NCBI GenBank assembly: GCA_000509105.1 | Contig: BAIF02000024.1 | Coordinates: 1 to 64,000 of the forward strand | DNA length: 64,000 bases | Source of the DNA: Clostridiales bacterium VE202-21 | Lineage (GTDB): Bacteria; Bacillota; Clostridia; Lachnospirales; Lachnospiraceae | Reading direction: 5' to 3' | Made by a program: the position numbers and the translations under genes | Part shown: piece by piece, positions 17,407 through 35,481 of the stretch | How the letters are laid out: each line of letters begins with the position of its first letter | Position numbering within the stretch: the first letter of the stretch is position 1 | Notes under the pieces: generated by a model | Databases searched by the model: none | What the model was told of the DNA's origin: nothing | Seen by the model: only the letters and a program-made list of their open reading frames with translations

Positions 17407-17429
17407 AAAATTAAAAAAATTGTGAATAG

Positions 17430-17479
17430 AAAGAACCAGAAAAAGGATAAATAAATCTTAATTTCTGGTTCTTTTTTTT
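17430..17479 (+). terminator. rho-independent terminator after trmL
   Basis: AAAGAACCAGAAA pairs with TTTCTGGTTCTTT and runs into eight T. Long AT-rich loop of about 20 bases. Ends the trmL transcript. Confidence 0.8.
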
Positions 17480-17690: not shown

Positions 17691-17763
17691 GTACAATAAA
17701 TTATTAACGGTACCTGACAAGAATTCCTTAATAAACATAAGAAAGTGAAAGGAAGTATAAGCA

Positions 17764-18483
17764 ATGACAGAATATGTATTAAGTGAAGAGTTTAAAAGTA
17801 ATGTGCAGCAGGAGATGGAGAGCAACCCTTTCGCTGTTTTAAGCCGCCTGATTTATCAAGAACTGTATCAGGAGGTGATTGAGGGGCATCTGTTGCCCGA
17901 ACATAAGATCATTGAATCTAAAATTGCGAAAGAATTGAATGTTTCCCGTTCTCCTGTGAAAGTAGCACTTTCCGATATGGTGGATGAAGGGATTTTCTTC
18001 CGGGGCGTGGGAAAAACCGTCCATGTAAAGCCGATTTCTTATGAGGAATGTCTGTGGATTTATGAAGCAAGGATGACACTGGAACCCAAAGCTGCTTATC
18101 AGGCAGCAAAGCGGATCAAGCCTGCGGAGTTGCAGCAGTTAAAGGAACTTATCAGTAAATTTGAAGAGATCGACAATACCATGGATCAGAGAGAGTATAC
18201 CAGAACAGATAAGCAGTTTCACGAGATTATCATCAAGGCATCCCGCAATCCATATTTGGTGAGTATGTACAAGTCTATAGAATGTCCTCTGGCCTGCTAT
18301 CGCAATCAGCTCAACCAGCTTGCTTATGAAGAATGTTTTCAGCAGCATGACATGGGGAGCGGATCGGAGCATCACAAGGCAATATTTAACATGCTTAAAA
18401 ACCATCTGCCCTTATTGGCGGAAGATGAGATGCGCAATGATATACAGCGGATGTATGGGACAATGTCACGGCTGAGAAAGTAA
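17764..18483 (+). CDS. GntR family regulator with FCD domain
   Basis: A 239-residue FadR-subfamily regulator. Winged helix at ~25-95 (HKIIESKIAKELNVSRSPVK, then a wing ending VHVKP). The FCD ligand domain follows with YEARMTLEPKAAYQAA, FHEIIIKASRNPYL and GSGSEHHKAIF, whose His/Asp residues usually bind a metal and a carboxylate ligand. FCD regulators mostly sense organic or sugar acids. It stands immediately upstream of the catabolic operon in the same direction but has its own terminator, so it is the likely operon regulator (inference). Confidence 0.9.
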   Translation: MTEYVLSEEFKSNVQQEMESNPFAVLSRLIYQELYQEVIEGHLLPEHKIIESKIAKELNVSRSPVKVALSDMVDEGIFFRGVGKTVHVKPISYEECLWIYEARMTLEPKAAYQAAKRIKPAELQQLKELISKFEEIDNTMDQREYTRTDKQFHEIIIKASRNPYLVSMYKSIECPLACYRNQLNQLAYEECFQQHDMGSGSEHHKAIFNMLKNHLPLLAEDEMRNDIQRMYGTMSRLRK

Positions 18484-18525
18484 AGGTCAGAGTGCGTTAC
18501 AGAAAATAATGAGTTTTAAGTTCAT

Positions 18526-18573
18526 ATACCCTGTAAAGAGACTATCATAGGTTTCTTTACAGGGTGTTTTATT
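18526..18573 (+). terminator. rho-independent terminator after the GntR gene
   Basis: ACCCTGTAAAGA pairs with TCTTTACAGGGT, followed by GTTTTATTTG. It separates the regulator from the operon promoter at 18697. Confidence 0.75.
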
Positions 18574-18696
18574 TGTTGAAAATGTACAATATATAGATGA
18601 AAATATGAAGATTAAGTGCAATATAAACAGGAAAATAAAATAAATGTTTCCGAATACAAACAAAAAATACAAAAAAAATCGATTAAAGAACTTATT

Positions 18697-18726
18697 TTGA
18701 CACATATTGTTGAGTGTTTATATAAT
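18697..18726 (+). promoter_or_regulatory. main promoter of the TRAP/transketolase operon
   Basis: TTGACA (18697-18702), an 18-base spacer and TATAAT (18721-18726), both consensus boxes, 50 bases before the first gene. No obvious long inverted repeat overlaps it; the GntR operator could not be located. Confidence 0.75.
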
Positions 18727-18776
18727 AATCGTGGCAATAGAAAGAGAGGAGCGTATTCAAACAAAGGAGATTAGCT

Positions 18777-19640
18777 ATGGAATACAAGACGATGCGCAAT
18801 AATATGAAAGTTCCTATGCTCGGTCTGGGGTGCTATAAGTCCGAGGCTGAGGAAGGAATCCGCGCAGTGAAAAGTGCAATTGAGGTGGGGTACCGGCACA
18901 TTGATACGGCAAACTTCTATGAAAACGAAGTATACGTAGGAAAAGGCATCCGTGAGAGCGGAATTGACAGGGGTGAACTTTTTGTAGTAAGTAAGATCTG
19001 GCCGACTAGCTACAAAACGCCGGAAACGGCTGTGGAGTACAGCATGAAGGCTCTGGATGTTGACTACATAGACATGTACCTGCTGCACTGGCCCGGTCAG
19101 AACGAGTATGCGCGATATCATGCTTTTGAGGCTTTACTGAAGTATAAAGAGAAGGGATATTTCAAAGAGATCGGGGTCTCCAATTTCAAAAAGGAACATC
19201 TGGAGGCGCTGACGGAGAAATTTGGTATCGTGCCGGTCATGAACCAGATTGAACTCTCCCCCTGGCTGCAGAAAAGGGAAGATTATCAGTACTGTACGGA
19301 AAAGAATATTACGATGACTGCCTGTGTGCCGTTTGCGAAGGGGTATATTCTGTCTGAGCCGCAGCTGGAACGGATTGCCGGAAAACACGGCAAAAATGTC
19401 GGTCAGGTCATACTGAGATGGAACATTCAGCGGGGCAACTGCGTCATCCCTAAATCATCGAAGCCCCACAGGATTGCCGATAATTTTAATATATTTGATT
19501 TCGAACTGGATGAAGAGGATATGTCTGTAATCGGCAGCATGGAAAACGGGAATGCATACTGCAGTGATTCCTCAGTATTCACGGGTGATTTCTGGAACAT
19601 AGAGGATCATTTGCTGAACAGGAAGGAGAATATGTCATGA
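18777..19640 (+). CDS. aldo/keto reductase
   Basis: A 287-residue AKR with the catalytic tetrad Asp43 (HIDTANFYENE), Tyr48, Lys73 (SKIWP) and His104 (LLHWPG), and the NADPH site IPKSSKPHRI near residue 227. It would reduce an aldehyde or ketose, or oxidise the matching polyol. It is the first gene after the operon promoter and its stop overlaps the TRAP binding-protein start (ATGA), so it is part of the same catabolic unit. Substrate unknown. Confidence 0.9.
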   Translation: MEYKTMRNNMKVPMLGLGCYKSEAEEGIRAVKSAIEVGYRHIDTANFYENEVYVGKGIRESGIDRGELFVVSKIWPTSYKTPETAVEYSMKALDVDYIDMYLLHWPGQNEYARYHAFEALLKYKEKGYFKEIGVSNFKKEHLEALTEKFGIVPVMNQIELSPWLQKREDYQYCTEKNITMTACVPFAKGYILSEPQLERIAGKHGKNVGQVILRWNIQRGNCVIPKSSKPHRIADNFNIFDFELDEEDMSVIGSMENGNAYCSDSSVFTGDFWNIEDHLLNRKENMS

Positions 19641-20665
19641 AAATAAAAAGAATCACGGCTTTAGGCTGCGCGGCTGCAATGGTTTCTGTCCTGCTTTTGG
19701 TCGGCTGCCAGAAAAAGGAAATAGAAAAGGTAGATCATGGAGTGATCAGGATCGCTTACAACAATGCAGAAGATTATCCGCATTTCAAGGCACTTAAATG
19801 GGCCTCCGAAGAAATAGAGAAGGTGACGGATGGGAGGTTTACGGTAAAGATTTATTCGAACGGAACACTGGGGGATCAGAGGGCGGCCCTCGAACTGACG
19901 CAGAATAACGCTGTTCAGATGTGCGTGGCCAATGCGACAATCGTGGAAAGCTATAACGGAGATTTCTCGGTCTTAAGCATGCCTTATTTATTTAAGGACA
20001 GTGATCATCAAAGGGAGGCATATACAAGCGGAATTCTGGACGATCTGTTCGATTCGACAGCGGAGCATGATTTTAAGATCGTCGGTGCATTTGGTTCTGG
20101 TTCCAGAAATATATTCTGTGCCAGAGAGGTGCGTGAACCGAGTGACCTGAAAGGACTCAAAATCCGTGTCATGCAGTCTGATAACATGGTGAAAATGCTG
20201 CATCTGATGGGCGGGACCGGGGTCCCGATGTCCGCATCCGAGCAGTATTCGGCCATGCAGCAGGGCGTGGTGGACGGAGCGGAATCCAATGAAATTGACT
20301 ATGTGGGCAAGAAGTATTACGAGGTGGCACCTGTATTTTCAAGGACAGAGCATTGTTTTAGTACAGACTTTGTCGTGGCGAGCACACAGTTTCTGGAATC
20401 ATTGTCAGAGGAAGATAAGGAACTGGTAGAAGGTGTTATGGACGAATGCGTTGAGAAGGAATTTGATTTCTGGGCGGAGATGGTGGAAGACAGCATTGAG
20501 CAGGCGCAGTCCCTTGGTATTGAGTTCATCGATGACGTAGATAAAGACGCTTTCGCGGAGAGCTTTACAGAATTTCAGGAATCAATCGCAAACAGCAATG
20601 ACATGACAAAGAGTGTTTACGAGGCAATTGTTTCGCTGAGATCGGAGGGAGAAGAAAATGAGTAG
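19637..20665 (+). CDS. TRAP transporter substrate-binding lipoprotein (DctP family), system 1
   Basis: A 342-residue solute receptor. Signal peptide with lipobox LLLVGC (Cys at ~24) implies a lipid-anchored protein on the outer face. The DctP fold shows YSNGTLGDQRAALE, FSVLSMPYLFKD, LKGLKIRVMQSDNMVKML with the ligand arginine, and the QQGVVDGAESN loop. TRAP receptors typically bind a carboxylate through that arginine. Overlaps the aldo/keto reductase and the small permease gene on either side. Confidence 0.92.
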   Translation: MKIKRITALGCAAAMVSVLLLVGCQKKEIEKVDHGVIRIAYNNAEDYPHFKALKWASEEIEKVTDGRFTVKIYSNGTLGDQRAALELTQNNAVQMCVANATIVESYNGDFSVLSMPYLFKDSDHQREAYTSGILDDLFDSTAEHDFKIVGAFGSGSRNIFCAREVREPSDLKGLKIRVMQSDNMVKMLHLMGGTGVPMSASEQYSAMQQGVVDGAESNEIDYVGKKYYEVAPVFSRTEHCFSTDFVVASTQFLESLSEEDKELVEGVMDECVEKEFDFWAEMVEDSIEQAQSLGIEFIDDVDKDAFAESFTEFQESIANSNDMTKSVYEAIVSLRSEGEENE

Positions 20666-21158
20666 TGTACGAAAGGTGATAGATAAGATTTTAGAGGCGG
20701 CGTCTATATTAATCCTTGGGATTATGACGATTCTTGTCGTATACCAGGTAGTGACCCGGTATGTCTTTAACAATCCCAGTTCATGGAGTGAAGCCATTGT
20801 TACGTATGGTTTTATCTGGCTGGCCATGCTCTGCGGTGCCTATGTGTTCGGAAAGAGGGATCATATGGCGATGACTTTTATACTGGATAAGTTCAAAGGA
20901 AAAAGAAAGATAATCGTTGAGATGATTAACGAGTTCCTGATTCTCCTTTTTGCAGCCGGAGTGCTGCTGGCCGGCGGATATTTTGGTGCACTGAAGCAAA
21001 TGACCCAGGCGGATTCCATACTGCCGATTTCTATGGGAGTGATCTATATTGCCATCCCGATTGCGGGTGTCTTTATGTTTTTATATTTTATCTGCAATGA
21101 GTGGGATATGGTCCAGAAGCTGAAAGACCCGGATGAAAAAGAGAAGGAGGGGAAATAA
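20658..21158 (+). CDS. TRAP transporter small permease (DctQ family), system 1
   Basis: A 166-residue protein with four predicted membrane helices and the DctQ signature VVTRYVFNNPSSWSEAIVTY near residue 33. It forms the membrane complex with the DctM subunit encoded next. Starts 8 bases inside the receptor gene; stop is 1 base from the DctM start. Confidence 0.92.
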   Translation: MSSVRKVIDKILEAASILILGIMTILVVYQVVTRYVFNNPSSWSEAIVTYGFIWLAMLCGAYVFGKRDHMAMTFILDKFKGKRKIIVEMINEFLILLFAAGVLLAGGYFGALKQMTQADSILPISMGVIYIAIPIAGVFMFLYFICNEWDMVQKLKDPDEKEKEGK

Positions 21159-21159
21159 G

Positions 21160-22464
21160 ATGGATGTAGCTGTATTGGCGACAATAATTATGGTAGCGGC
21201 TTTGATTATATTTCTGATAATGGGCGTACCGATTGCAATCTCTATCGGATTGTCTTCCGCGATGGCAATGATGGTAATCCTGCCTGCAGATGTTGCTTTA
21301 GTGACATGTGCTCAGAAAATGTTTACTGGCCTGAATTCATTCCCGCTTCTTGCGATTCCGTTTTTCGTACTGGCCGGGAATTTTATGAATAATGGAGGGA
21401 TCGCTGTGCGGATCGTCCGTCTTGCGGAGGCTTTATGCGGGAAACTGCCGGGTCCGCTGGCACAGAGCAATATCGTTGCAAACATGTTTTTCGGGGCAAT
21501 TAGCGGAAGCGGCAATGCAGCAGCGGCAGCGATGGGCGGAACAATCGGTCCGATCGAGGAAGAGAGAGGTTATGCAAAGGAATACTCAGCGGCTGTGAAT
21601 ATTGCATCGGCCCCTACGGGAATGCTGATTCCACCCAGTAATGCGCTGATCGTATTTTCTACAGTCGGCGGTTCAGTCTCGGTAGCGGCACTGTTTATGG
21701 GTGGTTATATCCCCGGCATCCTCTGGGGGATTGCGGTCATGATTGTGGCCGGTTATATGGCAAAAAAACGCGGATACATCAATACAGAGAAGGTATCCGG
21801 AAAAATGAAACTGCAGTATTTTGTACAGGCTATCCCAAGCCTGATTCTTATCCTCATTATCATAGGCGGAATTCTGAGCGGGATTTTTACGGCCACAGAG
21901 GCTTCTGGAGTGGCAGTTGTTTACGCGATGGTTCTCAGCTTTATTTATAAAAGTATTACGGTGAAGGATCTGCCGAAGATTCTTCTGGATTCAGCGAAGA
22001 CAACCGTTATCATCGTATTTTTGATTGGCGTGTCGTCCATTATGTCATGGATTATGGCCTATACAAGTATCCCGGATATTATTGCCACGGCAATGCTGGC
22101 GCTTACAAACAGTAAGATTATAACGTTGATTATTATTAATATCGTTCTGCTGCTGGTGGGAACTTTTATGGACCCGACACCTGCAATTTTAATTTTTACT
22201 CCGATCTTTATGCCTATCTGCGTCGGTTTCGGCATGAGTCCGATCCATTTCGGAATTATGCTTGTCTACAACTTGTGTATCGGTGCGATCACACCGCCGG
22301 TAGGAACAGTATTGTTTACAGGATGTAAGATCGGGAAAGTCACGATAGAGCAGGTGATTAAAACATTACTTCCATATTTTGCGGCGATTATCATTGTGTT
22401 GCTGCTTGTGACTTATATACCTGCCCTGTCCGAATTTCTGCCGTCTCTGAACGGTTATATATAG
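21160..22464 (+). CDS. TRAP transporter large permease (DctM family), system 1
   Basis: A 434-residue protein with about a dozen membrane helices, typical of the sodium-coupled DctM channel subunit. Motifs include FPLLAIPFFVLAGNFMN, AISGSGNAAAAAMGG, PTGMLIPPSNALIVF and ATEASGVAVVYA. GAGAAGGAGGGG lies before the ATG at 21160, so the ATG 27 bases upstream, inside dctQ, is not used. Confidence 0.93.
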   Translation: MDVAVLATIIMVAALIIFLIMGVPIAISIGLSSAMAMMVILPADVALVTCAQKMFTGLNSFPLLAIPFFVLAGNFMNNGGIAVRIVRLAEALCGKLPGPLAQSNIVANMFFGAISGSGNAAAAAMGGTIGPIEEERGYAKEYSAAVNIASAPTGMLIPPSNALIVFSTVGGSVSVAALFMGGYIPGILWGIAVMIVAGYMAKKRGYINTEKVSGKMKLQYFVQAIPSLILILIIIGGILSGIFTATEASGVAVVYAMVLSFIYKSITVKDLPKILLDSAKTTVIIVFLIGVSSIMSWIMAYTSIPDIIATAMLALTNSKIITLIIINIVLLLVGTFMDPTPAILIFTPIFMPICVGFGMSPIHFGIMLVYNLCIGAITPPVGTVLFTGCKIGKVTIEQVIKTLLPYFAAIIIVLLLVTYIPALSEFLPSLNGYI

Positions 22465-22476
22465 GGGGTATGAAAT

Positions 22477-22905
22477 ATGTCTGAGTGTTATTACTGCGAG
22501 AATGGCGAGGCCCTGGGAAGTCTGATGATCCATGTCAAAGACATAGGGAATGCGTCCGTCTACCTGTACAGGGATCAGACTCACAGGGGAAAATGTATCG
22601 TTGTCTACCGGACGGCACATAAAACAGAGTGGTACCAGCTCTCCGACGAAGAGCAGGCAGAACTGATTCATGCCGTCAGTAGGACCGCCGAAGCACTGGA
22701 TAAGGTATTTTATCCGGATAAGATTAATTATGCAACATATGGGGATAAGGTAAATCATCTTCATGTACATATCGTGCCTAAATATAAGGACGGCCCCGAC
22801 TGGGGCGTGCCTTTTAAAGATACACGTCCGCCGTTCCTGCTTGAGGAAAGACAGTATGATGAGCGGGTAAATGAAATCAGAGCTGCTATAGAACGTTTAG
22901 AATAG
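22477..22905 (+). CDS. HIT family protein
   Basis: A 142-residue histidine-triad protein with H94-L-H96-V-H98-IV in the catalytic motif and a cysteine pair CYYC at the N-terminus. HIT enzymes hydrolyse or transfer nucleotidyl groups (AMP-lysine, dinucleotides, nucleotide sugars). It is placed between the two TRAP systems, 12 bases after one and 19 before the other, so it is co-transcribed. Its role in this pathway is unknown. Confidence 0.88.
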   Translation: MSECYYCENGEALGSLMIHVKDIGNASVYLYRDQTHRGKCIVVYRTAHKTEWYQLSDEEQAELIHAVSRTAEALDKVFYPDKINYATYGDKVNHLHVHIVPKYKDGPDWGVPFKDTRPPFLLEERQYDERVNEIRAAIERLE

Positions 22906-22924
22906 GATGGTGGGAGGAAAAAAG

Positions 22925-23932
22925 GTGAAACGAAAAAGAATCATAAATCTTATGTTTGTTTTTGTATTACTGTTTACGGTCGTTATGTCTGCAGGGTGCG
23001 GTAAAAATAAGGACGGCATCAAGCGTCTAAAGCTCTCTATTAATACGAACCAGTCCCAGGTTGATATGGCAGAAGCCATGCAGGAGCGGATTAAAGAGCT
23101 GTCAGAAGGAAGGATGGAGATCGATGTGTATGGGGACGGACAGTTAGGCGGTGACCGTGAAGTCGCAGAGACCGTACAGTATGGAAATATTGATATGTGT
23201 ATTGTATCCACAACCCCGGTTGCAGCATTTTATCCGGACCTGAATGTATTTGATGCCCCGTTTTTGTTCAAGGATTCTGCACAGGCGCAGGAGATCCTGG
23301 ACGGTGAGATCGGGCAGGATATAGCAAAAGGTATGGAGGATATCGGGTTTAAGGTACTGGGATTCCCGGAAAACGGATTCCGCCAGCTCTCCACTGCAGC
23401 AAAGGAGGTTCATTCACCGGCAGATCTGAAGGGGTTAAAAGTAAGGGTTATGGAAAGTGAGGTACATATTGAAACATGGAAGGCACTCGGTGCCAGCCCT
23501 ACACCGATGGCATTCTCAGAATTATTTACTGCGCTCCAGCAGAAAACTGTGGACGGGCAGGATAATCCGTTTGTAACCGATCGGGATAACCGTTTCTATG
23601 AGGTGCAGGACTATATCATCGAAACAAACCATGTATATACCCCTTATTTGCTTCTGATGAGCAAGGACAGCTACGATAAACTGACTGACGAGGAAAAGGA
23701 GATCGTCGAGGAAGCAGGGGCATACGGTGTTTCCGTGCAGCGTGAAAAAACGGCAGAGTACGATGGGGATGCAGTGAAAGAGATGCAGGACAAGGGGGTT
23801 ACCCTGATATCGCTGACCGATGAAGAAAAACAGCAGTTCCGTGATGCAGTCTCGGACATATACAGTCTGGTGGAAACAAAAGTAGAGCATCCGGAGCTGT
23901 TCCAGAGAATACTGGATAAGACTGCAGAATAG
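22925..23932 (+). CDS. TRAP transporter substrate-binding lipoprotein (DctP family), system 2
   Basis: A 335-residue DctP-family receptor, only moderately like the first one. Lipobox VVMSAGC gives a lipoprotein. Features: DGQLGGDREVAETVQYG, DAPFLFKDS, LKGLKVRVMESEVHIETWKA with the ligand arginine, and QQKTVDGQDNPF. GGGAGG is 8 bases before GTG 22925, which is preferred to an ATG 18 bases upstream that lies too close to the HIT stop and has no site. Confidence 0.9.
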   Translation: MKRKRIINLMFVFVLLFTVVMSAGCGKNKDGIKRLKLSINTNQSQVDMAEAMQERIKELSEGRMEIDVYGDGQLGGDREVAETVQYGNIDMCIVSTTPVAAFYPDLNVFDAPFLFKDSAQAQEILDGEIGQDIAKGMEDIGFKVLGFPENGFRQLSTAAKEVHSPADLKGLKVRVMESEVHIETWKALGASPTPMAFSELFTALQQKTVDGQDNPFVTDRDNRFYEVQDYIIETNHVYTPYLLLMSKDSYDKLTDEEKEIVEEAGAYGVSVQREKTAEYDGDAVKEMQDKGVTLISLTDEEKQQFRDAVSDIYSLVETKVEHPELFQRILDKTAE

Positions 23933-23957
23933 TGAAGGAAAAGGAAGGAGTAAAGAA

Positions 23958-24455
23958 ATGTCCAAGTTCTGGAAATTTTTAGATGAGCATGCAGAGGATA
24001 TCATCTCTGCGACACTCATGAGCGTGGCGACAATCGCGATCGTAGTGCAGGTAATCATGCGTTATTTGTTCAAAAGCTCACTCTCCTGGTCGGAGGAGCT
24101 GGCAAGATATGTTTTTGTGTGGATGACCTTCATTTCTATCTCTTACGGCATCAAGATGAGGAAACATGTGAAGATTGAAGCAGCGCTGTCGTTGTTTCCA
24201 AAGAAAATCAGACCGGTCATCGTCATGATAGGTGATGTGATTTCTCTGGGATGGTGTGTATTCGTGGTCATTACGGGCTGGATGCTGCTGGGAAAGGTAA
24301 TTAGGTCGGGACAGATTTCACCCGCGATGTCGATTCCTATGTATTTCATCTACCTGGCACCCTGTATTGGATACATTTTATCCTCCATACGCTGTGTACA
24401 GACAATCGTCCTGCGTGTGCAGAATTATAAGAAGGGGGTGGAGATGAATGATTAG
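23958..24455 (+). CDS. TRAP transporter small permease (DctQ family), system 2
   Basis: A 165-residue protein with four membrane helices and the DctQ signature VIMRYLFKSSLSWSEELARY. AAGGAGT precedes the start. It overlaps the following large permease gene by 8 bases, as in system 1, consistent with coupled assembly. Confidence 0.92.
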   Translation: MSKFWKFLDEHAEDIISATLMSVATIAIVVQVIMRYLFKSSLSWSEELARYVFVWMTFISISYGIKMRKHVKIEAALSLFPKKIRPVIVMIGDVISLGWCVFVVITGWMLLGKVIRSGQISPAMSIPMYFIYLAPCIGYILSSIRCVQTIVLRVQNYKKGVEMND

Positions 24456-25731
24456 CCTCGTACTCTTTGGAGTTATGATTATTCTTTTGATACTGAACGT
24501 CCCTGTGGCGATCGCGCTTGGACTCGCTTCTCTTGCCGCAATCCTTTATTCGGGCGATCTGACGACAGGATACATCGTACAGAATCTGGTGACCAGTTCC
24601 GATTCCTTTACGACAATGGCCATCCCGTTTTTCGTACTTGCAGGTGAGATGATGGGCGGCGGAGGCATATCCAGACGCCTGATGGACAGTGCAAGAGTCT
24701 TCTTCGGCAGATTTACAGGAGGCCTTGCGATTGTGACCGTTGTCGTGTGCATGTTTTTTGCGGCCATCTCCGGTTCAGGCCCCGCGACAGTAGCAGCTGT
24801 AGGCGGTATGGTTATCCCGTCCATGCTTGCGGCAGGTTATGATAAGAAATTCACACTGGCCGTGATTGCGGCGGCAGGAAGTATCGGTGTTATTATTCCG
24901 CCGAGTATTCCGATGGTTATTTACAGCGTGTCTACCAACCAGTCGATCTCAGAGCTGTTCATGGCCGGATTTGTACCGGGGATTCTGATCGGCCTGTCCC
25001 TGATCGGATATTCTTATTTCTACTGTAAAAAGAAAGGCTATCAGGGGGATAAAGAGCCGTTTTCATGGAAGCGGGCCGGGAAAGTATTATGGGATGCGAA
25101 ATGGGCGCTGATCTGCCCGGTCATCATTCTCGGCGGTATCTACGGCGGCATCTTCACACCTACAGAGGCTGCGGCAGTTGCAGCGGCTTACGGATTTATC
25201 GTTGGTGTATTTGTTTATAAAGAACTGACACTGAAGGAAGCCGTGAAGGTCATTAAGTCGGCAGTAGTGACGACATCCACGATCATGCTTGTTATCGGCT
25301 GTGCAGCCGTATTTACAAAGGTCCTTGCGGTTGCAAAGATTCCGACACTCGTGGCAAATGCGATTATCGGTCTGAATGCAAATAAGATTGTGATACTGAT
25401 TCTGATCAACGTTGTCCTGCTTTTCGTCGGCTGTTTCATGGAGACGTTGTGTGCAATCATGATACTGGCACCGATTTTCCTTCCAATCGTTACTGCAGTG
25501 GGCGTCGATCCGATCCATTTTGGTCTCGTGATGGTAGTAAACCTTGCAATCGGGTTCATTACACCGCCGCTTGGCATTAACCTGTTTGTCGCCAGCCGTG
25601 TCGGGGGAGCACAGCTCTCAGAAGTCATCAAGGGCATTATTCCGTTTATTGCCGTTATGATCATAGACCTGCTTCTGATTACATATCTGCCGGCGATCAC
25701 CCTGTTCCTTCCGAAACTGTTTATGCGGTAG
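24448..25731 (+). CDS. TRAP transporter large permease (DctM family), system 2
   Basis: A 427-residue DctM channel protein. Motifs: FTTMAIPFFVLAGEMM, AAISGSGPATVAAVGGM, IIPPSIPMVIYS and FTPTEAAAVAAAYGF. It belongs to the more common DctM branch, whereas system 1 has the variant NAAAAAMGG region, so the two systems are not a recent duplication. Substrate pairs may differ. Confidence 0.93.
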   Translation: MISLVLFGVMIILLILNVPVAIALGLASLAAILYSGDLTTGYIVQNLVTSSDSFTTMAIPFFVLAGEMMGGGGISRRLMDSARVFFGRFTGGLAIVTVVVCMFFAAISGSGPATVAAVGGMVIPSMLAAGYDKKFTLAVIAAAGSIGVIIPPSIPMVIYSVSTNQSISELFMAGFVPGILIGLSLIGYSYFYCKKKGYQGDKEPFSWKRAGKVLWDAKWALICPVIILGGIYGGIFTPTEAAAVAAAYGFIVGVFVYKELTLKEAVKVIKSAVVTTSTIMLVIGCAAVFTKVLAVAKIPTLVANAIIGLNANKIVILILINVVLLFVGCFMETLCAIMILAPIFLPIVTAVGVDPIHFGLVMVVNLAIGFITPPLGINLFVASRVGGAQLSEVIKGIIPFIAVMIIDLLLITYLPAITLFLPKLFMR

Positions 25732-25786
25732 CCGGGAAACAGGATAGAAAAAACAAATAAAAACTTGAAATAATGGAGGCGTAAGA

Positions 25787-26770
25787 ATGAAAGCAATCGT
25801 AGTAGATAAGAATTCGGCGGATGGTCTGGATTACAGCATTCAGCAGAAAATTTTTGAAGATAACGGAATTGAATTTGTACTGGAGGACTGCCAGACAGAG
25901 GATGAGATTATAGAAAAATGCAGGGACGCAGATGCTCTGCTCGTGATATACCGTAAGATTACACCCAGAATCATGGATGCGCTGACCAACTGCAAAGTAA
26001 TTCTCAGATATGGCATCGGGTATGATGTCATCGATGTAGATGCAGCAACGAAGCGCGGCATCAAGGTATGCAACAGTCCCACACACTGTCTGGATGAAGT
26101 TGCTACACATACCATCGCTATGATACTTGCGATGGAACGGCAGCTTGTATTTTTCAATGACCTGGTAAAAGAGGGGAAATGGCTCGCGAACGCAGGATTC
26201 AAACCCCACCGCCTGTCATGCCAGACACTCGGATTCGTGGGATTTGGCAATATTGCAAGAAGAACCGCCGATTTTGCTAAGGGATTCGGATTCCGCATGG
26301 TGGCTTATGACCCATATCTTGATGAATCTATCATAACCGCTTCCGGTGCGGAAAAAGTAGAACTGGATGAACTGCTGGCTGTTTCAGATGTGATAACCAT
26401 TCACACACCTTTGTTTGAAAGTACCTATCACCTCATTAATAAAGATACAATTGCCAAAATGAAAGATGGTGTCATGATCGTCAACACCTCACGCGGCCCG
26501 ATTATCTCCGCGGACGATCTGATGGCAGCAGTTAAGGAGGGGAAGGTCAGGGCAGCGGCACTGGATGTTGTGGAGCATGAACCGATCAGTGAGCCGGGAC
26601 ATCCGCTCTTTGAAACCGGAAAGATCATATGCTCCCCCCACGCAGCCTATAATTCGGTGGAGGCAGAGAAGCAGATGATGGCAGTGCTGGCGGCCACAGC
26701 AGTGGATACTTTAAACGGTAAGAATCCGGACAACATTGTAAACAAAAAAGCATTAGGAACAGGAGTGTAG
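25787..26770 (+). CDS. D-isomer specific 2-hydroxyacid dehydrogenase
   Basis: A 327-residue NAD-dependent dehydrogenase. It has the dinucleotide site GFVGFGNIAR (149-158), catalytic Arg236 (NTSRGPII), Glu265 (VVEHEP) and His285 (CSPHAAYN), the complete triad of the family. It resembles the C-terminal catalytic part of 3-phosphoglycerate dehydrogenases but lacks an ACT domain. It probably interconverts a 2-keto acid and a D-2-hydroxy acid in this pathway. Good ribosome site GGAGGCG. Confidence 0.9.
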   Translation: MKAIVVDKNSADGLDYSIQQKIFEDNGIEFVLEDCQTEDEIIEKCRDADALLVIYRKITPRIMDALTNCKVILRYGIGYDVIDVDAATKRGIKVCNSPTHCLDEVATHTIAMILAMERQLVFFNDLVKEGKWLANAGFKPHRLSCQTLGFVGFGNIARRTADFAKGFGFRMVAYDPYLDESIITASGAEKVELDELLAVSDVITIHTPLFESTYHLINKDTIAKMKDGVMIVNTSRGPIISADDLMAAVKEGKVRAAALDVVEHEPISEPGHPLFETGKIICSPHAAYNSVEAEKQMMAVLAATAVDTLNGKNPDNIVNKKALGTGV

Positions 26771-26774
26771 ACAG

Positions 26775-27548
26775 ATGAAAAATTTATTAAGAGAAAAAAT
26801 CATGAATGGTGAAAAAACAATCGGTACCTTTTTTGAGGCAGGCAATGCAAATGTGGCCGAAGCGCTCGCTCTGACAGCGGTGGATTATATGCTGATTGAT
26901 ACAGAGCACGGCCCGTTTGATGTGGAAAGCGTGATGCCCATGCTAAGGGCGGCAGAACTTCATGACACGACGGCGCTCGTCAGAGTGAAGGACTCGAACC
27001 GGAATTCAGTGCTGAAGATGCTGGATATCGGGGCAGGCGGGCTGATCATTCCTCAGGTACATTCCATAGAAGAGATCAGAAAGCTTGTGGAATATGCAAA
27101 ATACTATCCGCTCGGACAGCGCGGGGTGGCCTTTGCCAGAGGTGCCGGGTACGGATATCTGGAACATGCGGCCGGAGACATCAATGACTATTTTGCAACA
27201 TGCAACAGGGAGACACTGCTTGTTCCGCAGTGTGAGACGATGGGCTGTCTGGAAAATATCGAAGAGATTGCCAAAGTAGACGGGGTGGACGGCATTTTTG
27301 TAGGACCATATGACCTGTCTGTAGCAATGGGGATTCCGACACAATTTGACAAGCCGGAATTTAAGGCAGCAATGGAAAGAATTGTGAAAGCAGTCAGGGC
27401 AGCAGGCAAGTTTACGATTATCTACTGCGCAAATTCCGAAGTTGCCAATGCAAGGCTCTCCCAGGGCTTCGACAGTGTGACGGTGGGACAGGATATCAAC
27501 TATTATATTGATGCCATCAACGCGATGGTAAAAGAGATTCACGTGTAA
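26775..27548 (+). CDS. HpcH/HpaI family aldolase
   Basis: A 257-residue class II pyruvate aldolase. The active-site residues align with E. coli HpaI: His45 (IDTEHGP), Arg70 (ALVRVKD), metal ligands Glu154 and Asp180 (VGPYDLS). Such enzymes split 2-keto-3-deoxy or 4-hydroxy-2-keto acids into pyruvate and an aldehyde. The gene starts 4 bases after the dehydrogenase. Together with the TRAP systems this points to acid sugars or similar carboxylates as substrates (inference). Confidence 0.9.
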   Translation: MKNLLREKIMNGEKTIGTFFEAGNANVAEALALTAVDYMLIDTEHGPFDVESVMPMLRAAELHDTTALVRVKDSNRNSVLKMLDIGAGGLIIPQVHSIEEIRKLVEYAKYYPLGQRGVAFARGAGYGYLEHAAGDINDYFATCNRETLLVPQCETMGCLENIEEIAKVDGVDGIFVGPYDLSVAMGIPTQFDKPEFKAAMERIVKAVRAAGKFTIIYCANSEVANARLSQGFDSVTVGQDINYYIDAINAMVKEIHV

Positions 27549-27567
27549 CAGAACAGGAGGTAAGAAT

Positions 27568-28398
27568 ATGACAGTAAAGGAACTGAAAGCGTTTGCAAAT
27601 GAAGTCCGGATTGCAACAGTAAAATGCCTCGAAACGAGAGGTTTCGGGCACATCGGCGGCTGCCTCTCCATCGCGGATGTCCTGGCGGTGCTTTATAACG
27701 GAGAAATGAACATTGATCCTAAGGAACCTCAGAAAACAGACCGTGACATGCTGGTCGTATCCAAGGGACATTCGGGTCCGGCTGTATTTGCGGCACTGGC
27801 TTTAAAAGGGTATTTCCCGATGGAATGGCTGGATACACTCTGCGAGGGAGGTACAAGGCTTCCGAGTCACTGTGACAGGCTGCGCACACCGGGAATCGAC
27901 GCATCGACGGGATCTCTCGGACAGGGGCTTTCTCTGGCGAATGGATTAGCCCAGGGGGCAAAATTAAAGAGGCTTCCGAACCGTGTGTACTGTCTCATGG
28001 GAGACGGTGAGATTCAGGAGGGCCAGATCTGGGAAGCGGCAATGTATGCCCATCAGTATAAGCTCAATAACCTGGTCGGTATCGTGGACTGGAATAAGAA
28101 ACAGATTGACGGAACCATTGATGAGTGTATATCCCTCCTTGACATAGAGGAGAAGTTCCGCTCATTTGGATGGTATGCACTGACAGTCAAAGGCAATGAC
28201 CCGGAAGCAATCCAGAATGCGTTCTTAAGTGTCAGGGAGAATCAGGGCGATAAGCCGGCCGTTATCGTGCTTGACGGCACGAAGGGCAGCGGGGTGAAGT
28301 GTGTAGAGGAAATGGTATTTAACCATATGATCCCTGTCGATAAGGAACTGGCGGACAAGTGTCTGGCAGAGCTTGAAGAAGTTAAGGCAAGTGTGTGA
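27568..28398 (+). CDS. transketolase, N-terminal (ThDP-binding) subunit
   Basis: A 276-residue half transketolase. It shows GFGHIGGCLSIADVLAVLY, SKGHSGPAVFAAL, the TGSLGQGLSLANG loop and the ThDP/metal motif GDGEIQEGQIWEAAM. The pyrimidine-binding half is a separate gene immediately downstream; split transketolases are common in Clostridia and archaea. It would move two-carbon ketol units between ketose and aldose substrates. The presence of a private copy inside a catabolic operon is notable. Confidence 0.93.
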   Translation: MTVKELKAFANEVRIATVKCLETRGFGHIGGCLSIADVLAVLYNGEMNIDPKEPQKTDRDMLVVSKGHSGPAVFAALALKGYFPMEWLDTLCEGGTRLPSHCDRLRTPGIDASTGSLGQGLSLANGLAQGAKLKRLPNRVYCLMGDGEIQEGQIWEAAMYAHQYKLNNLVGIVDWNKKQIDGTIDECISLLDIEEKFRSFGWYALTVKGNDPEAIQNAFLSVRENQGDKPAVIVLDGTKGSGVKCVEEMVFNHMIPVDKELADKCLAELEEVKASV

Positions 28399-28411
28399 GG
28401 AGGTACATATA

Positions 28412-29380
28412 ATGGTGAAAACAATCTATAACGGTGATTATGAGAAAAAAGCAATTACAGAACAGTTTCTTGATCATTTAGAGAGTATGCTTGAAAATGA
28501 TCCGGACGTTGTGTACCTTGATGCCGATCTGATGTTTGCATTCGGTGCGGGACTCTGGGATCTGGTCAAAAAATATCCCGACAGGGTACTCAGATGCGGC
28601 ATAGCCGAGGCAAACATGATCGGTACGGCGGCTGCGATGTCAGTTATGGGATTAAAACCGGTTATTCACAGCTTTGCCTCCTTTGTGACCCGCAGAGGAT
28701 TCGATCAGATATTTCTGTCCGGTGCGTATGCGAAAAAAACGCTCAACATTATCGGAAGCGAGCCGGGATATAAGCAGACATACTGGGGCGGCACCCATAT
28801 GGCATTTGAAGATATCGCTATGATGCGGACGGTACCGGACTGCAGGATTTTTGATATCGCCGACGGCGTACAGTTCAATAAGCTTCTTGGCAGGACGATT
28901 GATATGAAAGGAATCTCCTATTACAGGACACCTCTTGCAGATAACATAGCAGTCTATGATGAGGATGCAGAATTCGAGATTGGAAAGGGAAACGTGCTCA
29001 GAGAAGGAAAAGATGCTTCGATTATCGCCTGCGGACGGTTAGTGACGATAGCACTTCAGGCGGCGCAGCTGTTGGCAGACGAAGGCATAGAAGTTACGGT
29101 TGTGGATATGTTTACCGTGAAGCCGCTCGATGAGGAACTGGTACTGAAATGTGCAAAGGAGACAGGAGCTATTGTGACGGCGGAGAATCATTCCGTATAC
29201 GGCGGCCTCGGGTCTGCGGTTGCAGAGTATCTGGGAGAACACTGCCCGACAATTGTAGAGAGGATCGGTACGAGGGATGAATTCGGAGAGGTAGGTTCCG
29301 AGGCGTATTTAAGAGAACGGTTTGGCTTTACACCTGAGAAGATCGCAGAACGGGTGAAATATGCCGTGAATAAGAAATAA
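28412..29380 (+). CDS. transketolase, C-terminal subunit
   Basis: A 322-residue partner holding the pyrimidine-binding domain (DPDVVYLDADLM, RCGIAEANMIGTAAAMSVMG with the catalytic glutamate) and the transketolase C-terminal domain (VTAENHSVYGGLGSAVAEYL). GAGGAGG lies between the previous stop and ATG 28412; a longer in-frame start inside the previous gene is less likely. It forms the active enzyme with the preceding product. Confidence 0.93.
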   Translation: MVKTIYNGDYEKKAITEQFLDHLESMLENDPDVVYLDADLMFAFGAGLWDLVKKYPDRVLRCGIAEANMIGTAAAMSVMGLKPVIHSFASFVTRRGFDQIFLSGAYAKKTLNIIGSEPGYKQTYWGGTHMAFEDIAMMRTVPDCRIFDIADGVQFNKLLGRTIDMKGISYYRTPLADNIAVYDEDAEFEIGKGNVLREGKDASIIACGRLVTIALQAAQLLADEGIEVTVVDMFTVKPLDEELVLKCAKETGAIVTAENHSVYGGLGSAVAEYLGEHCPTIVERIGTRDEFGEVGSEAYLRERFGFTPEKIAERVKYAVNKK

Positions 29381-29384
29381 GGCT

Positions 29385-29492
29385 GCTGTTCAGTGCAGGG
29401 GACTATGCGCGGCCTATAGGCCGTGGCGAAGTCTCCCGTGCCGGACTGTACACATACTGCACAGTCCATACAAAAACACTGAACGGTTTATA
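29385..29492. repeat. structured repeat related to the AACAGTTCAGGC family
   Basis: Between GTTCAG and CTGAAC lie two hairpins: a GC-rich one around GCGGCCTATAGGCCG, and GACTGTACACATACTGCACAGTC followed by CATACAAAAAC. The second matches GTCTGTACATTTACTGCGCAGAC + CGTACCAAAAC at 32487 with a compensating change in its stem (A-T to T-A). It separates the transketolase genes from the isomerase gene. Confidence 0.5.
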
Positions 29493-29510
29493 TAACAGAA
29501 AGGTGAAAAG

Positions 29511-31010
29511 ATGGAATTACAGCGAAATTATAAATTCTGGTTCTGTCCGGGTTCTGTGGATCTGTATGGGGACGCTGAGATACAGGTAGTCACGGAACAC
29601 AGCAGGATCATCGTAGACGAATTGAACCGCTCCGAACTGGTGCCGTTTGAGATTGTTCTGAAGCCGACCCTGATATCGAATCCGACGATCCGGAAGACCT
29701 TTAATGAGGCAAATGCAGATGAAGAGTGCGCTGGTGTGATCGCATGGATGCATATGTTTTCACCGGCGAAATCCTGGATCTTAGGTCTGAAGGAATTGAG
29801 AAAGCCGCTTCTGCATCTGCACACACAGTTTAATGAAGAGATCCCGTATGATACGTTAGATATGGATTTTATCAATATTAACCAGTCCGCCCACGGCGAC
29901 AGGGAGTTTGCCTATATGCTCGCCAGAATGGGGCTTGAGCATAAGATCGTGGCAGGACACTGGAGTGCGGCCACGGTGCAGGAAAAGATCGGCAGATGGA
30001 TGCGTACGGCGGCAGGTATTCTTGAGAGCAGCCATCTCAGGGTTCTCAGGCTTTCGGATAATATGAGAAATGTAGCGGATACCGAGGGCGACAAAGTAGA
30101 TGCACAGATGCGGTTCGGCTGGGAAGTGGATACCTATCCGGTTAATGAGGCTGCCGAAGCAGTTGAGGCGGTATCGCAGTCAGACGTAAATGCACTTACA
30201 GATGAGTATTATGAAAGCTATGGGATCATGTTAGATGGAAGGGAGCCTTCAGAATTCCGCCGCCATGTAGCGGTACAGGCACAGATCGAGCTTGGAGTTG
30301 AGCGGTTTATGAAGGAGAAGGATTACCAGGCGGTCGTGACTCACTTTGGGGATCTGGGCAGCTTAAAGCAGCTGCCCGGGCTGGCCATGCAGCGACTCAT
30401 GGCAAAGGGTTATGGCTTCGCGGCAGAGGGTGACTGGAAGACGGCAGCGCTCCTTCGTCTTGTCAAGCTCATGACGGCAGGAATCAAGGATGCAAAAGGA
30501 ACCTCCTTCATGGAGGACTATACCTATAACCTTGTTCCGGGAAAGGAAGGAATTCTGGAGACGCACATGCTTGAGATCTGTCCTTCTATTGCGGACGGCC
30601 CTGTGAGCATTAGGGTAAATCCACTTGTGCTGGGCGGCCGGGAAGATCCGGCGAGACTCGTATTTACCGCTAAAGAAGGCGACGCAATTGCTGCATCCCT
30701 GATTGATATGGGGGACAATTTCCGGCTGATTATTAATGACATCACGTGTAAAAAAACTGAAAAACCAATGCCGAACCTTCCGGTTGCTACTGCATTCTGG
30801 ACTCCAAAACCAGACTTTGAGAACGGTCTGGAAGCCTGGCTCATGACAGGCGGCGCACATCATACAGTCATGACTTATGACCTGACGGCGGACCAGCTTG
30901 GCGGCTGGGGAGATGCGATGGGGATTGAGACGGTTTATATTGATGAACATACAACAATCCGTGACCTGGAAAGAGAGCTGAGATCATTTAAGAGAGGCGG
31001 AATCATATGA
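29511..31010 (+). CDS. araA: L-arabinose isomerase-type enzyme
   Basis: A 499-residue aldose-ketose isomerase. It follows AraA throughout: GVIAWMHMFSPAKSWILGL, LLHLHTQFNEEIPYD, DFININQSAHGDREF, AEGDWKTAALLR with Glu306, SFMEDYTYN with Glu335, His352 in ETHMLEICPS and His450 in GGAHHT, the four metal ligands. E. coli AraA has Glu306, Glu333, His350 and His450, so the site is intact. No ribulokinase or epimerase of the classic araBAD set is present. True substrate may be another aldose. GAAAGGTG precedes the start. Confidence 0.85.
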   Translation: MELQRNYKFWFCPGSVDLYGDAEIQVVTEHSRIIVDELNRSELVPFEIVLKPTLISNPTIRKTFNEANADEECAGVIAWMHMFSPAKSWILGLKELRKPLLHLHTQFNEEIPYDTLDMDFININQSAHGDREFAYMLARMGLEHKIVAGHWSAATVQEKIGRWMRTAAGILESSHLRVLRLSDNMRNVADTEGDKVDAQMRFGWEVDTYPVNEAAEAVEAVSQSDVNALTDEYYESYGIMLDGREPSEFRRHVAVQAQIELGVERFMKEKDYQAVVTHFGDLGSLKQLPGLAMQRLMAKGYGFAAEGDWKTAALLRLVKLMTAGIKDAKGTSFMEDYTYNLVPGKEGILETHMLEICPSIADGPVSIRVNPLVLGGREDPARLVFTAKEGDAIAASLIDMGDNFRLIINDITCKKTEKPMPNLPVATAFWTPKPDFENGLEAWLMTGGAHHTVMTYDLTADQLGGWGDAMGIETVYIDEHTTIRDLERELRSFKRGGII

Positions 31011-31883
31011 ATAAAATAGGAATTCATTTCGGATACTTTAATACAGACTGGAACACTGATTTTATCAGGCAAATTGAACAGATCAAAAGGATAGGACTGG
31101 ACATACTGGAAGTGGCACCGGCACCGTTTTTTCGCTCTGTCGAAAAACAAAAGGGATGAAATCGCACGGGCGGCAAAAGGAAATGATATCACACTCACGT
31201 TTTCAGTAGGTCTTGGGGCAGATCAGGATCTGGCATCTGAGGATGAAACCGTAAGGAACCGCGGAATAAAGTTTACACTGGATACCTTTAAAATCATGAG
31301 TGAAATGGGTTCGAATATGTATTCCGGTGTTGATATTGGTGCATGGAACCAGCCTTTTACCACGGGTGTAACAGATAAGAGCGCTGTCGTTAAACGAAGC
31401 GTGAACTCTGTAAAAGAAATTATGAAGGCGGCTGAGACTTTCGGCATCACCTTTGCGGTAGAAGTAGTCAACCGCTATGAATCATCCCTTGTGAATACTG
31501 CGAAAGAAGCAATGGCTTATGTGGACATGGTGGACAGTCCGAACTGTAAAATACTGCTGGATACTTACCATATGAATATAGAAGAAGACAGTTTTGCAGA
31601 TGCAATCCGGCTTGTCGGGGACAGACTGGGCCACTTCCATGTCGGAGAATCTAACCGCAGGCCTCCGAAGGAGGATGGAAGAATACCGTGGGACGAGATC
31701 ACGGGTGCGTTGAAGGAGATTCATTACCAGGGTGCGGTAGTGATGGAACCATTCATTAAAATGGGCGGAGAAGTAGGACGTGATATAAAAGTGTGGAGAG
31801 ACATCAGTGAGAATGCATCCGCTGAAGAAATGGAGCAGCTTGTAAAGAATGCCGTTGCCATGCTTAGGGAAAAATTATCTTAA
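31007..31883 (+). pseudogene. D-tagatose/D-psicose 3-epimerase family protein, frame broken in a T run
   Basis: A ketose C3-epimerase-type TIM barrel. The start overlaps the araA stop (ATGA). The frame reads to residue 40 (LEVAPAPFF) and then shifts; removing one base from the T6 run at 31127-31132 restores ALSKNKRDEIARAAKGND and a 291-residue protein. Active-site blocks of the family are intact downstream: EVVNRYE, LDTYHMNIEE, GHFHVGESNR and VMEPFIKMGGEVG. With araA it suggests ketose interconversion. Without correction only a fragment starting near 31296 could be made. Real lesion or assembly error cannot be decided here. Confidence 0.82.
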
Positions 31884-32084
31884 CCTATGCGGACTAGTAC
31901 GACAGCGAACGTTAGTGTAAAATATTAGCCGGCAAAATGGGGCTGTCGGTTAATACCGATTTTTAAGTCCTTTACCAAAGAATAGGAATAGGTAGTGTTA
32001 ATTAATTTGTGCCCTTGGTGAAAAATGGCTCCTTTTTGGTAAGAATTCAGATATGACAATTCTTATTAAAAAGGAGTATTTTTT

Positions 32085-32302
32085 ATGGCAGTAGCAAAAG
32101 AACAAATTCGACAGATTATCTCAGAAAACAACATCAACAGCTTTCCAGCGATAGCTCGCTGGAAAAAATGCTGTATCTTGCAAGTGGAAATGTCATAAAG
32201 AAATGGACACAGAGATACTGGAACTGGAATCAGGAGCAGAACCAGCTCATCGTGCTTTATAATGAACGGCTTTTCCAAAATTGTTTTATTTTCAGCAAAT
32301 AA
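32085..32302 (+). mobile_element. IS256-family transposase remnant with internal deletion
   Basis: ATG 32085 starts MAVAKEQIRQIISENNINS, the N-terminus of IS256-group transposases. The next recognisable piece, in another frame, is SLEKMLYLASGNVIKKWTQR followed by YWNWNQEQNQLIVLYNERLF and a stop at 32300-32302, the C-terminus of the same protein. About 330 residues including the whole DDE core are gone, leaving 218 bases. AAGGAG precedes the ATG. The flanks from ~31960 to ~32400 (CTTTACCAAAGAA on the left) may hold the element ends but I could not fix the terminal repeats. It cannot encode transposase. Confidence 0.75.
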
Positions 32303-32443
32303 CAAAAAAAGCGGTTGAGAAAACCAGGTGTTGTCTATAATAAGAGTAGTTAATTTTGGTTTTCTATTTGTGTTTAAGGGGAAATCAGAGGTATATCGAA
32401 ACAAATTGCAGAATTTCTAAAAATAAAAGTCAATATATTATTG

Positions 32444-32472
32444 TTTACCATCAAAAAATTGTGTGATATTCT
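32444..32472 (+). promoter_or_regulatory. probable promoter of the V-ATPase operon
   Basis: TTTACC (32444-32449), a 17-base spacer and TATTCT (32467-32472). The dispersed repeat at 32474-32609 would then form most of the 5' leader. No better promoter was found in the 300 bases before the operon. Confidence 0.5.
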
Positions 32473-32473
32473 A

Positions 32474-32609
32474 TAACAGTTCAGGCAGGTCTGTACATTT
32501 ACTGCGCAGACCGTACCAAAACGTGGTGGTTGCTGGCATCCAGCACTTCGCGCAGGCGAATTTCAATGGGCTGGTTGCGTAACAGTTCGGGTTTGCCTGA
32601 ACTGTTATG
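32474..32609. repeat. dispersed structured repeat, AACAGTTCAGGC family, long copy (reversed)
   Basis: Begins AACAGTTCAGGCAGGTCTG, then the TACATTTACTGCGCAGACC hairpin, CCAAAACGTGGTGGTTGCTG, CAGCACTTCGCG, GAATTTCAATGGGCTGGTTG and ends with the palindrome AACAGTTCGGG / CCTGAACTGTT. In reverse complement it runs parallel to 8202-8392. It lies in the presumed leader of the V-ATPase operon. Confidence 0.65.
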
Positions 32610-32650
32610 ATATTCTAAAAACGCGTACGCAGAAAGGCGGTGACCAATTT

Positions 32651-32962
32651 ATGGTAGAAGAGACCATTCAAGTGATCCGGGAAACGGAAGCAAAAGCCGG
32701 GGCTATTGTGAAGGAAGCCGATGCAAAGTGCAGAAAAATACTGGATGATGCATCGAAAGAGGCTGATATGTTGAAAGCCCGTCAGGTAGAAGAGATTCGC
32801 AGACAGGCAGAATCCATGATGGAAGCTGCGAAAGAACAAGGTGCACAATCTCTGAAAGAAGCAGCGGTTGCTGTGGAAAAAGAAATCAGTGCACTTAAGG
32901 AGCTGGCTTCCGAGAAGGAAGAACAGGCAGTTAGCCTCGTAATATCACAACTGGTTTCGTAA
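32651..32962 (+). CDS. V-type ATPase stalk subunit (H/G-like)
   Basis: A 103-residue, highly charged, almost wholly helical protein rich in Ala/Glu/Lys (ETEAKAGAIVKEADAKCRKI), predicted as a coiled coil. This matches the short H/G-type peripheral stalk subunits that open bacterial and archaeal V-ATPase operons (NtpF of Enterococcus). It precedes subunit I by 28 bases. It would pair with subunit E to form the stator stalk. Confidence 0.8.
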   Translation: MVEETIQVIRETEAKAGAIVKEADAKCRKILDDASKEADMLKARQVEEIRRQAESMMEAAKEQGAQSLKEAAVAVEKEISALKELASEKEEQAVSLVISQLVS

Positions 32963-32990
32963 AAAAGCAGGATAAAGGAGGTAATACATT

Positions 32991-35481
<2,491 letters not shown>

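Follow-up and report, generated by a model that had tools for sequence, protein, structure and literature searches.

An operon whose split transketolase lacks the phosphate clamp may serve sugar-acid catabolism through unphosphorylated sugars in two related gut bacteria

We analysed a stretch of 64,000 nucleotides from Clostridiales bacterium VE202-21 (contig BAIF02000024.1 of assembly GCA_000509105.1, positions 1 to 64,000 of the forward strand; hereafter the window), in which 14 genes on the same strand lie downstream of a single promoter. The operon encodes two TRAP transport systems, an HpcH/HpaI aldolase, a split transketolase without the usual phosphate clamp, an AraA-like isomerase and a ketose 3-epimerase. 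On the sequence evidence, we see about an even chance that these genes serve sugar-acid catabolism by way of unphosphorylated sugars; the operon, which recurs in Faecalicatena orotica, suggests that two related gut bacteria have a sugar route without a kinase that is so far undescribed. The host genome is a 5.3 Mb draft of 143 contigs (completeness 96.78, contamination 5.63).

Free rather than phosphorylated sugars are favoured because the transketolase has no phosphate clamp. The enzyme is encoded by two genes:
27568-28398, + strand, N subunit of the split transketolase (TKN, thiamine diphosphate (ThDP) domain; PF00456, 138 bits)
28412-29380, + strand, C subunit of the split transketolase (TKC) with an altered phosphate clamp; the ATG at 28412 is preceded by GGAGG

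In E. coli TktA numbering, which is used throughout for this enzyme, the predicted ThDP-binding and catalytic residues are retained (H26, H66, H100, H261, D155 and N185 in TKN, E411 and H473 in TKC). According to passages of PMC11659671, phosphate transketolases have RSFHR at the clamp positions 358/385/434/461/520, and the sulfofructose enzymes have RAFDR. In TKC these positions read T-A-F-E-L, which is neither of the two patterns. We compared TKC with 42 other rows of an alignment (split enzymes of relatives, transketolases encoded by the host genome itself, and E. coli TktA; 43 rows in all). R520 was present in 40 of the 41 rows other than those of the window and F. orotica, both of which lacked it, and only these two (2/43) had no basic residue at either 358 or 520; five rows were gapped at 358, all of them with R520. 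At position 469 TKC has W, and 39 of the 41 others have N or D there. Around the clamp sites the alignment of TKC with the C subunits of two related loci (L063 and L097) was free of gaps.

The same positions have been changed in the laboratory. The E. coli transketolase R358I/H461S/R520Q is described as more active on 5-keto-gluconate (excerpts of PMC12016104), H461S and R520V as more active on glycolaldehyde and propanal, and position 469 as tuning acceptor choice in E. coli mutants (both in excerpts of PMC3657141). Because the clamp is lost and engineered mutants at the same sites gain on such substrates, the operon's transketolase probably works with an unphosphorylated donor and acceptor. 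The argument rests on which residues changed, not on how many.

In a tree of the C subunits, both Faecalicatena rows stood on a long stem (0.95) within a 32-row clade (support 100/100) and grouped with an eight-row clade at 94/78, slightly below the star threshold. A nine-row clade (100/99) was separate from them; seven of its nine loci carried sulfo-TK-like genes, by which we mean SqwI-, transaldolase- and SqwF-like genes together. One locus of that clade is L063, whose C subunit is 47% identical to TKC and which encodes a sulfoquinovose (SQ)-isomerase-family protein (below cut-off), a sulfoacetaldehyde-reductase-like alcohol dehydrogenase, an RpiB-type isomerase and a transaldolase-type protein. 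Since TKC falls outside the nine-row clade, it is therefore, as judged from the tree, a relative of the sulfofructose enzyme and not a member of its group.

The neighbourhoods of the related split transketolases varied. Seven loci (L063, L064, L108, L109, L115, L118 and L123), in seven genomes of the same taxonomic order, had an RpiB-type isomerase, a transaldolase and a SqwF-like alcohol dehydrogenase beside the transketolase, and five (L098, L099, L104, L106 and L114) had a type II (archaeal-type) glyceraldehyde-3-phosphate dehydrogenase and phosphoglycerate kinase nearby. IolD-like genes were found near the transketolases of L099, L105 and L114, which possibly mark a transketolase route for inositol-derived 5-keto acids, and a protein taken by eye as 4-hydroxybutyryl-CoA dehydratase was found in L097 and L105. 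The host genome itself had eight Transket_pyr matches, two in long fused enzymes (frames of 633 and 673 amino acids) and the others in frames of 314-349 amino acids.

The isomerase shows a comparable departure from its family:
29511-31010, + strand, AraA-like isomerase with 11 invariant positions changed

It scored 705.7 bits against the NCBIfam L-arabinose isomerase model (cut-off 622 bits), contained all three Pfam domains and shared 71% identity with a second AraA of the genome, located at C118 beside an AraD recognised by eye. In a test applied evenly to all rows, it differed at 11 of 128 otherwise invariant positions (Q16V, L24I, T82M, M121I, R144H, V190D, K201R, L267M, R403N, D465G and A467G), whereas 21 comparison AraAs differed at 0-6 (22 rows before L035, which was in the wrong frame, was dropped). 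Several of these comparison AraAs match the canonical copy at no more than 50-57% identity and yet had fewer changes, and all 21 kept Q16 and T82, which are V16 and M82 in the window. Passages of PMC11172353 place L18, Y19, M185 and Q125 among the AraA pocket residues; Q16V, T82M, M121I and V190D adjoin the pocket residues given there. The window protein retains L18, Y19, Q125 and M185 as well as E306, E335, H352 and H450, which by homology to that enzyme would be metal ligands. We infer that the changed residues may touch the sugar. Searches of the open literature gave no paper that deals with what residue 16 does in AraA.

The last gene of the operon completes the sugar-handling set:
31007-31883, + strand, D-tagatose/D-psicose 3-epimerase family gene with a frame change near 31127-31132

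Its F. orotica counterpart scored 346.2 bits against the NCBIfam D-psicose 3-epimerase model (cut-off 300 bits) and retains E152, E158, D185, H188, H211 and R217, of which E152, D185, H188, H211 and R217 are presumably the metal and catalytic residues, as we take the roles and numbering from D-tagatose 3-epimerase (DTE) structures. At four positions this F. orotica copy departs from 29 comparison sequences: it has H7 (Y/F/L in the others, with one gap), D109 (L/S/M/I), I110 (Y) and N114 (P/G).

We found all 14 genes collinear at locus L054 of F. orotica NLAE-zl-C242, with identities of 81-98%. An ortholog of the regulator that precedes the operon adjoins the end of this locus (G434:C11:115031-115747, 95% identical). 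The ratio of nonsynonymous to synonymous substitution rates (dN/dS) between the two species was 0.013-0.100 in 14 comparisons (the epimerase value covers only the 195 codons past the frame change), with 0.029 for TKC and 0.032 for the AraA-like isomerase. The operon genes are under purifying selection in both species, and their collinearity together with the low dN/dS is more than chance.

Outside F. orotica, no second instance of the operon turned up in the following searches. A contig scan with TKC as the query, which depends on short exact peptide stretches so that distant relatives would escape it, returned three loci, in F. orotica (93%) and in two metagenome-assembled genomes (MAGs) of Spirochaetales (37 and 34%). 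Outside the two species, the best identities among 299 genomes of the family were 50% for TKC, 57% for the aldolase and 40% and 43% for the two TRAP receptors, and the best epimerase among 291 genomes of the class was 46% identical. At 28 Lachnospiraceae-family transketolase loci (4.6-19.9 kb long, two of them under 6 kb), tblastn at 1e-8 gave no match to the aldo-keto reductase, DctP, DctQ, DctM, HIT protein, dehydrogenase, aldolase or AraA; a distant epimerase-type match was present in three (L098, L100 and L112) and a distant GntR match in L110. Four HpcH neighbourhoods (best identity 57%) contained the aldolase alone among the operon genes, and the 21 AraA loci were covered with flanks of about 1.5 kb per side. 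In the two Spirochaetales MAGs (L055 and L056), where the split transketolase has a clamp of the H type, the gene immediately after it encodes a D-2-hydroxyacid dehydrogenase (36-39% identical to that of the operon), a pairing that resembles the arrangement in the window.

The remaining features of the operon and its upstream region are as follows:
17764-18483, + strand, GntR-family regulator with an FCD domain (Pfam FCD 85.4 bits, GntR 39.7 bits)
18526-18567, + strand, terminator-like hairpin 3' of the regulator gene (18-pair stem, T-rich tail)
18697-18726, + strand, promoter TTGACA-18-TATAAT (12/12 consensus matches)
18777-19640, + strand, aldo-keto reductase, DkgA-like (PF00248, 163 bits)
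19637-20665, + strand, TRAP receptor 1 (DctP; PF03480; triad R157, R177, N217)
20658-21158, + strand, TRAP small permease 1 (DctQ; PF04290)
21133-22464, + strand, TRAP large permease 1 (DctM; PF06808)
22477-22905, + strand, HIT-family protein (PF01230, 40.9 bits)
22907-23932, + strand, TRAP receptor 2 (DctP; PF03480; triad R159, R180, N220)
23958-24455, + strand, TRAP small permease 2 (DctQ; PF04290)
24448-25731, + strand, TRAP large permease 2 (DctM; PF06808)
25787-26770, + strand, D-isomer-specific 2-hydroxyacid dehydrogenase (phosphoglycerate dehydrogenase/hydroxypyruvate reductase type; PF02826, PF00389)
26775-27548, + strand, HpcH/HpaI class II pyruvate-type aldolase (PF03328, 118 versus 25 bits)
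29381-29500, + strand, structured insert in the transketolase/araA gap (fold -51.3 kcal/mol, z -4.93)

The transketolase, araA-like and epimerase genes follow the aldolase in that order. The araA-like gene starts 130 bases after the transketolase genes; all other intergenic spacings are -26 to 55 bases, with 4-19 bases separating the genes for the dehydrogenase, aldolase and transketolase. An earlier note on this DNA, made from the sequence alone, had placed the operon at 18697-31883, which holds, as the promoter begins at 18697 and the last gene ends at 31883. It had counted eleven genes; there are 14, the aldo-keto reductase, the HIT protein and the D-2-hydroxyacid dehydrogenase having been left out. 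Its identification of one consensus promoter, two TRAP systems, an FCD-GntR regulator, a split transketolase (the PF00456 N subunit plus the C subunit) and AraA agrees with the matches and scores given here. The ketose 3-epimerase that it named is right as to family and does not have a single open frame in this genome.

The operon promoter was the sole 12/12 match of the 26 promoter-like sites that a scan of 15 kb gave; shuffled sequences contained a mean of 24.8 promoter-like sites of any grade. An alignment with F. orotica has both hexamers and the 18-base spacer preserved. The stretch upstream of the promoter (18580-18690) is also well conserved in F. orotica and is perhaps an operator or upstream element. 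The 120-base insert at 29381-29500 folded better than all of 200 shuffles (0/200 as good). It is missing from F. orotica, where only a few bases lie between the genes. Its only other trace in the genome was a 24-base partial match (C78:95659-95682), and Rfam gave nothing at gathering level over 17000-33000, with one sub-threshold match (E 0.98).

Both TRAP systems are complete (DctP, DctQ and DctM), and both receptors have the Arg/Arg/Asn carboxylate triad that PMC11668362 describes for TRAP receptors. The best solved relatives of receptor 1 (identities 26-31%) were 4n91, 4p1l, 4xfe and 4x8r, with 4n8y also among the closest, and those of receptor 2 were 4pdh, 7bbr (second-best), 4p9k and 4pdd. 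The same source gives galacturonate as the ligand of 4n8y, glucuronate of 4x8r and 2-keto-3-deoxygluconate of 7bbr, and pantoate or erythronate as ligands of other relatives. The predicted receptor models had confidences (pLDDT) of 87.8 and 88.9. The aldolase has YfaU (2vws) as its best solved relative. Its HpcH/HpaI family is as the earlier note had it; that note had it release pyruvate, and hydroxypyruvate is equally possible. The aldo-keto reductase scored 246 bits against NCBIfam DkgA, under the cut-off of 425, and the dehydrogenase stayed under the cut-off of every equivalog.

How could these proteins form one pathway? The two TRAP systems would import two related sugar acids, one uronate-like and the other like an aldonate or 2-keto-3-deoxy acid. 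The aldo-keto reductase and D-2-hydroxyacid dehydrogenase would set the redox state of a keto acid, and the HpcH aldolase may cut a 2-keto acid to pyruvate or hydroxypyruvate and a free aldose. The transketolase, presumably incapable of gripping a phosphate on either donor or acceptor, would then transfer C2 units from one free sugar to another, or would take them from hydroxypyruvate and pass them to a free aldose. The free sugar would be reshaped by the AraA-like isomerase together with the 3-epimerase, and a kinase whose gene lies elsewhere would channel it into central metabolism. Both AraA and DTE-type enzymes belong to families that act on free sugars. A more specific version, offered only tentatively, is a natural transketolase that is wholly unphosphorylated in its substrates and has hydroxypyruvate as its probable donor: a 2-keto sugar acid such as 2-keto-L-gulonate would be split by the HpcH aldolase to hydroxypyruvate and free glyceraldehyde, and the transketolase would turn these into a free pentulose and CO2, the pentulose then being distributed by the AraA-like isomerase and 3-epimerase. 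Hydroxypyruvate and L-glyceraldehyde would give L-ribulose, a ketose that AraA handles. We also considered a route in which 2-keto-3-deoxyoctonate (KDO) is split to pyruvate and D-arabinose, followed by AraA and the epimerase. It was not kept as a lead because AraA-type stereochemistry fits L-arabinose and D-galactose and not D-arabinose.

Several observations weigh against catabolism through unphosphorylated sugars. No kinase was found among the operon proteins scanned, as the earlier note had said, and this carries less weight in view of 23 FGGY_N matches in the genome (22 over cut-off, some of them pieces of one gene). The operon set was found in two related species only. The hints as to what the receptors bind rest on relatives with identities of 26-35%, and since the receptor models match many TRAP receptors with near-tied Z, the fold leaves the ligand unfixed; for receptor 2, an open form and an isethionate receptor (4p47 and 8t9t) ranked above the sugar-acid receptors. 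By number, the changes at invariant positions are ordinary for the transketolase (2/25 and 2/37, where other rows reach 4 and 3) and for the epimerase (4/33), which one comparison row equals. T, A, E and L in the clamp could instead suit an unusual anionic substrate. Finally, neither draft has every operon gene intact. The window's epimerase frame, open from ATG 31007, ends at 31159 with the remainder to 31883 in another frame (one extra base relative to F. orotica near the T6 run at 31127-31132), and the F. orotica draft lacks one base of TKC in an A run near the 5' end (L054 near 10070). Both frame changes are likely draft errors or recent slippage, because in both cases the other species has the gene as an open frame, the sites are homopolymers and the rest is constrained; they may also represent phase variation or real loss in one strain.

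Foremost among the rivals is a keto-uronate route. Here an imported uronate would be isomerised by the AraA-like enzyme and inverted at C3 by the epimerase; the transketolase would take C1-C2 off the keto-uronate, and the aldo-keto reductase would reduce the C4 aldehyde acid that is left. Receptor 1 resembles uronate receptors, the activity of engineered R358I/H461S/R520Q on 5-keto-gluconate (PMC12016104, in excerpt) fits such a donor, and the IolD-like genes at the tree neighbours L099, L105 and L114 would make a 5-keto acid plausible as one. Yet the loss of both basic residues and the Glu at 461 disfavour a carboxylated distal end, and the HpcH aldolase would have no clear task, so that we regard this route as unlikely. 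Can ordinary chemistry account for the operon? Kinases elsewhere might supply sugar phosphates to a common pentose or uronate route, the clamp changes being neutral drift; FGGY kinases are plentiful, and the AraA-like enzyme lies above the L-arabinose isomerase cut-off. Near-universal clamp residues are, however, lost in both species at dN/dS of 0.029 (TKC) and 0.032 (AraA), and a second plain AraA is unneeded because the genome has an AraD-AraA pair at C118, which makes this explanation rather improbable. A low probability also attaches to unrelated functions gathered under one promoter, with acid transport and the aldolase apart from a free-sugar isomerase and transketolase module. The presence of two TRAP systems, a HIT protein without an obvious role and the restriction to two species would suit it, while the dehydrogenase, aldolase and transketolase genes, 4-19 bases apart and in the same order in both species, argue against it.

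A sulfosugar (sulfo-transketolase) variant is very improbable. The transketolase is split, its C subunit is akin to those of such loci (47% to L063), and Faecalicatena is a genus known for sulfo-transketolase (PMC11659671); but the clamp has neither of the two arginines found in that of the sulfofructose enzyme, sulfo-TK-like loci form the separate, supported nine-row clade, and none of four sulfo-TK marker queries (0/4) matched in the window. Specifically, tblastn at 1e-20 with L063 queries over the 64 kb window found no SqwI-, SQ-isomerase-, transaldolase- or SqwF-like gene, a search that does not cover more distant homologs or other contigs. The sulfoquinovose pathway fits poorly and was rejected on the clamp residues, the tree and the absent markers, and the doubt that the earlier note had voiced about a sulfoglycolytic transketolase route was well placed.

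Catabolism of a sugar acid by a pathway not yet assigned, as that note had proposed, remains the best reading and is partly supported, both receptors having the carboxylate triad. The sugars, which it had left as free or phosphorylated, now lean to free, with the phosphate clamp lost. The gene-neighbourhood search that it had suggested recovered the same collinear set in F. orotica and no instance elsewhere among the loci covered. Literature searches found no published description of the gene set and no described counterpart of a kinase-free sugar-acid pathway. The nearest paper, PMC11659671, concerns another Faecalicatena locus; its main text mentions neither orotica nor an arabinose isomerase, an epimerase or HpcH.

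The phosphate clamp of transketolase, a core enzyme, is close to universal, and it is precisely its residues that biocatalysis groups have mutated for use on free sugars. If the present reading is true, a natural enzyme in a defined operon, with its clamp replaced and under purifying selection, would be a ready-made biocatalyst, and gut bacteria would have a new way to exploit dietary sugar acids in which no ATP goes to a pathway kinase. Among known systems, the apiose transketolase route (AptA/AptB) also applies a split transketolase to an unusual sugar, but that route depends on a kinase and on a ketose in phosphorylated form, whereas the operon has neither a kinase nor the phosphate clamp. 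The AraA-like protein shares Pfam domains and an NCBIfam score with L-arabinose isomerase and differs in its 11/128 changes and in having no AraB or AraD in the operon. The epimerase shares score and catalytic residues with D-tagatose/D-psicose 3-epimerases and differs in H7, D109, I110 and N114 and in the broken frame in the window. The SqwGH pathway, as described in passages of PMC11659671, likewise combines a split transketolase without a dedicated sugar kinase, an isomerase alongside and a reductase for the aldehyde product; it differs in its R-A-F-D-R clamp (T-A-F-E-L here), in ABC import instead of TRAP and in its clade of the tree. Also comparable are the engineered E. coli R358I/H461S/R520Q and its kin, in which three clamp positions are replaced and unphosphorylated substrates are favoured (PMC12016104 and PMC3657141, both in excerpt). 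Those are laboratory mutants of a fused enzyme, whereas the enzyme of the operon is natural and split, with T, E and L at these positions together with A385 and W469.

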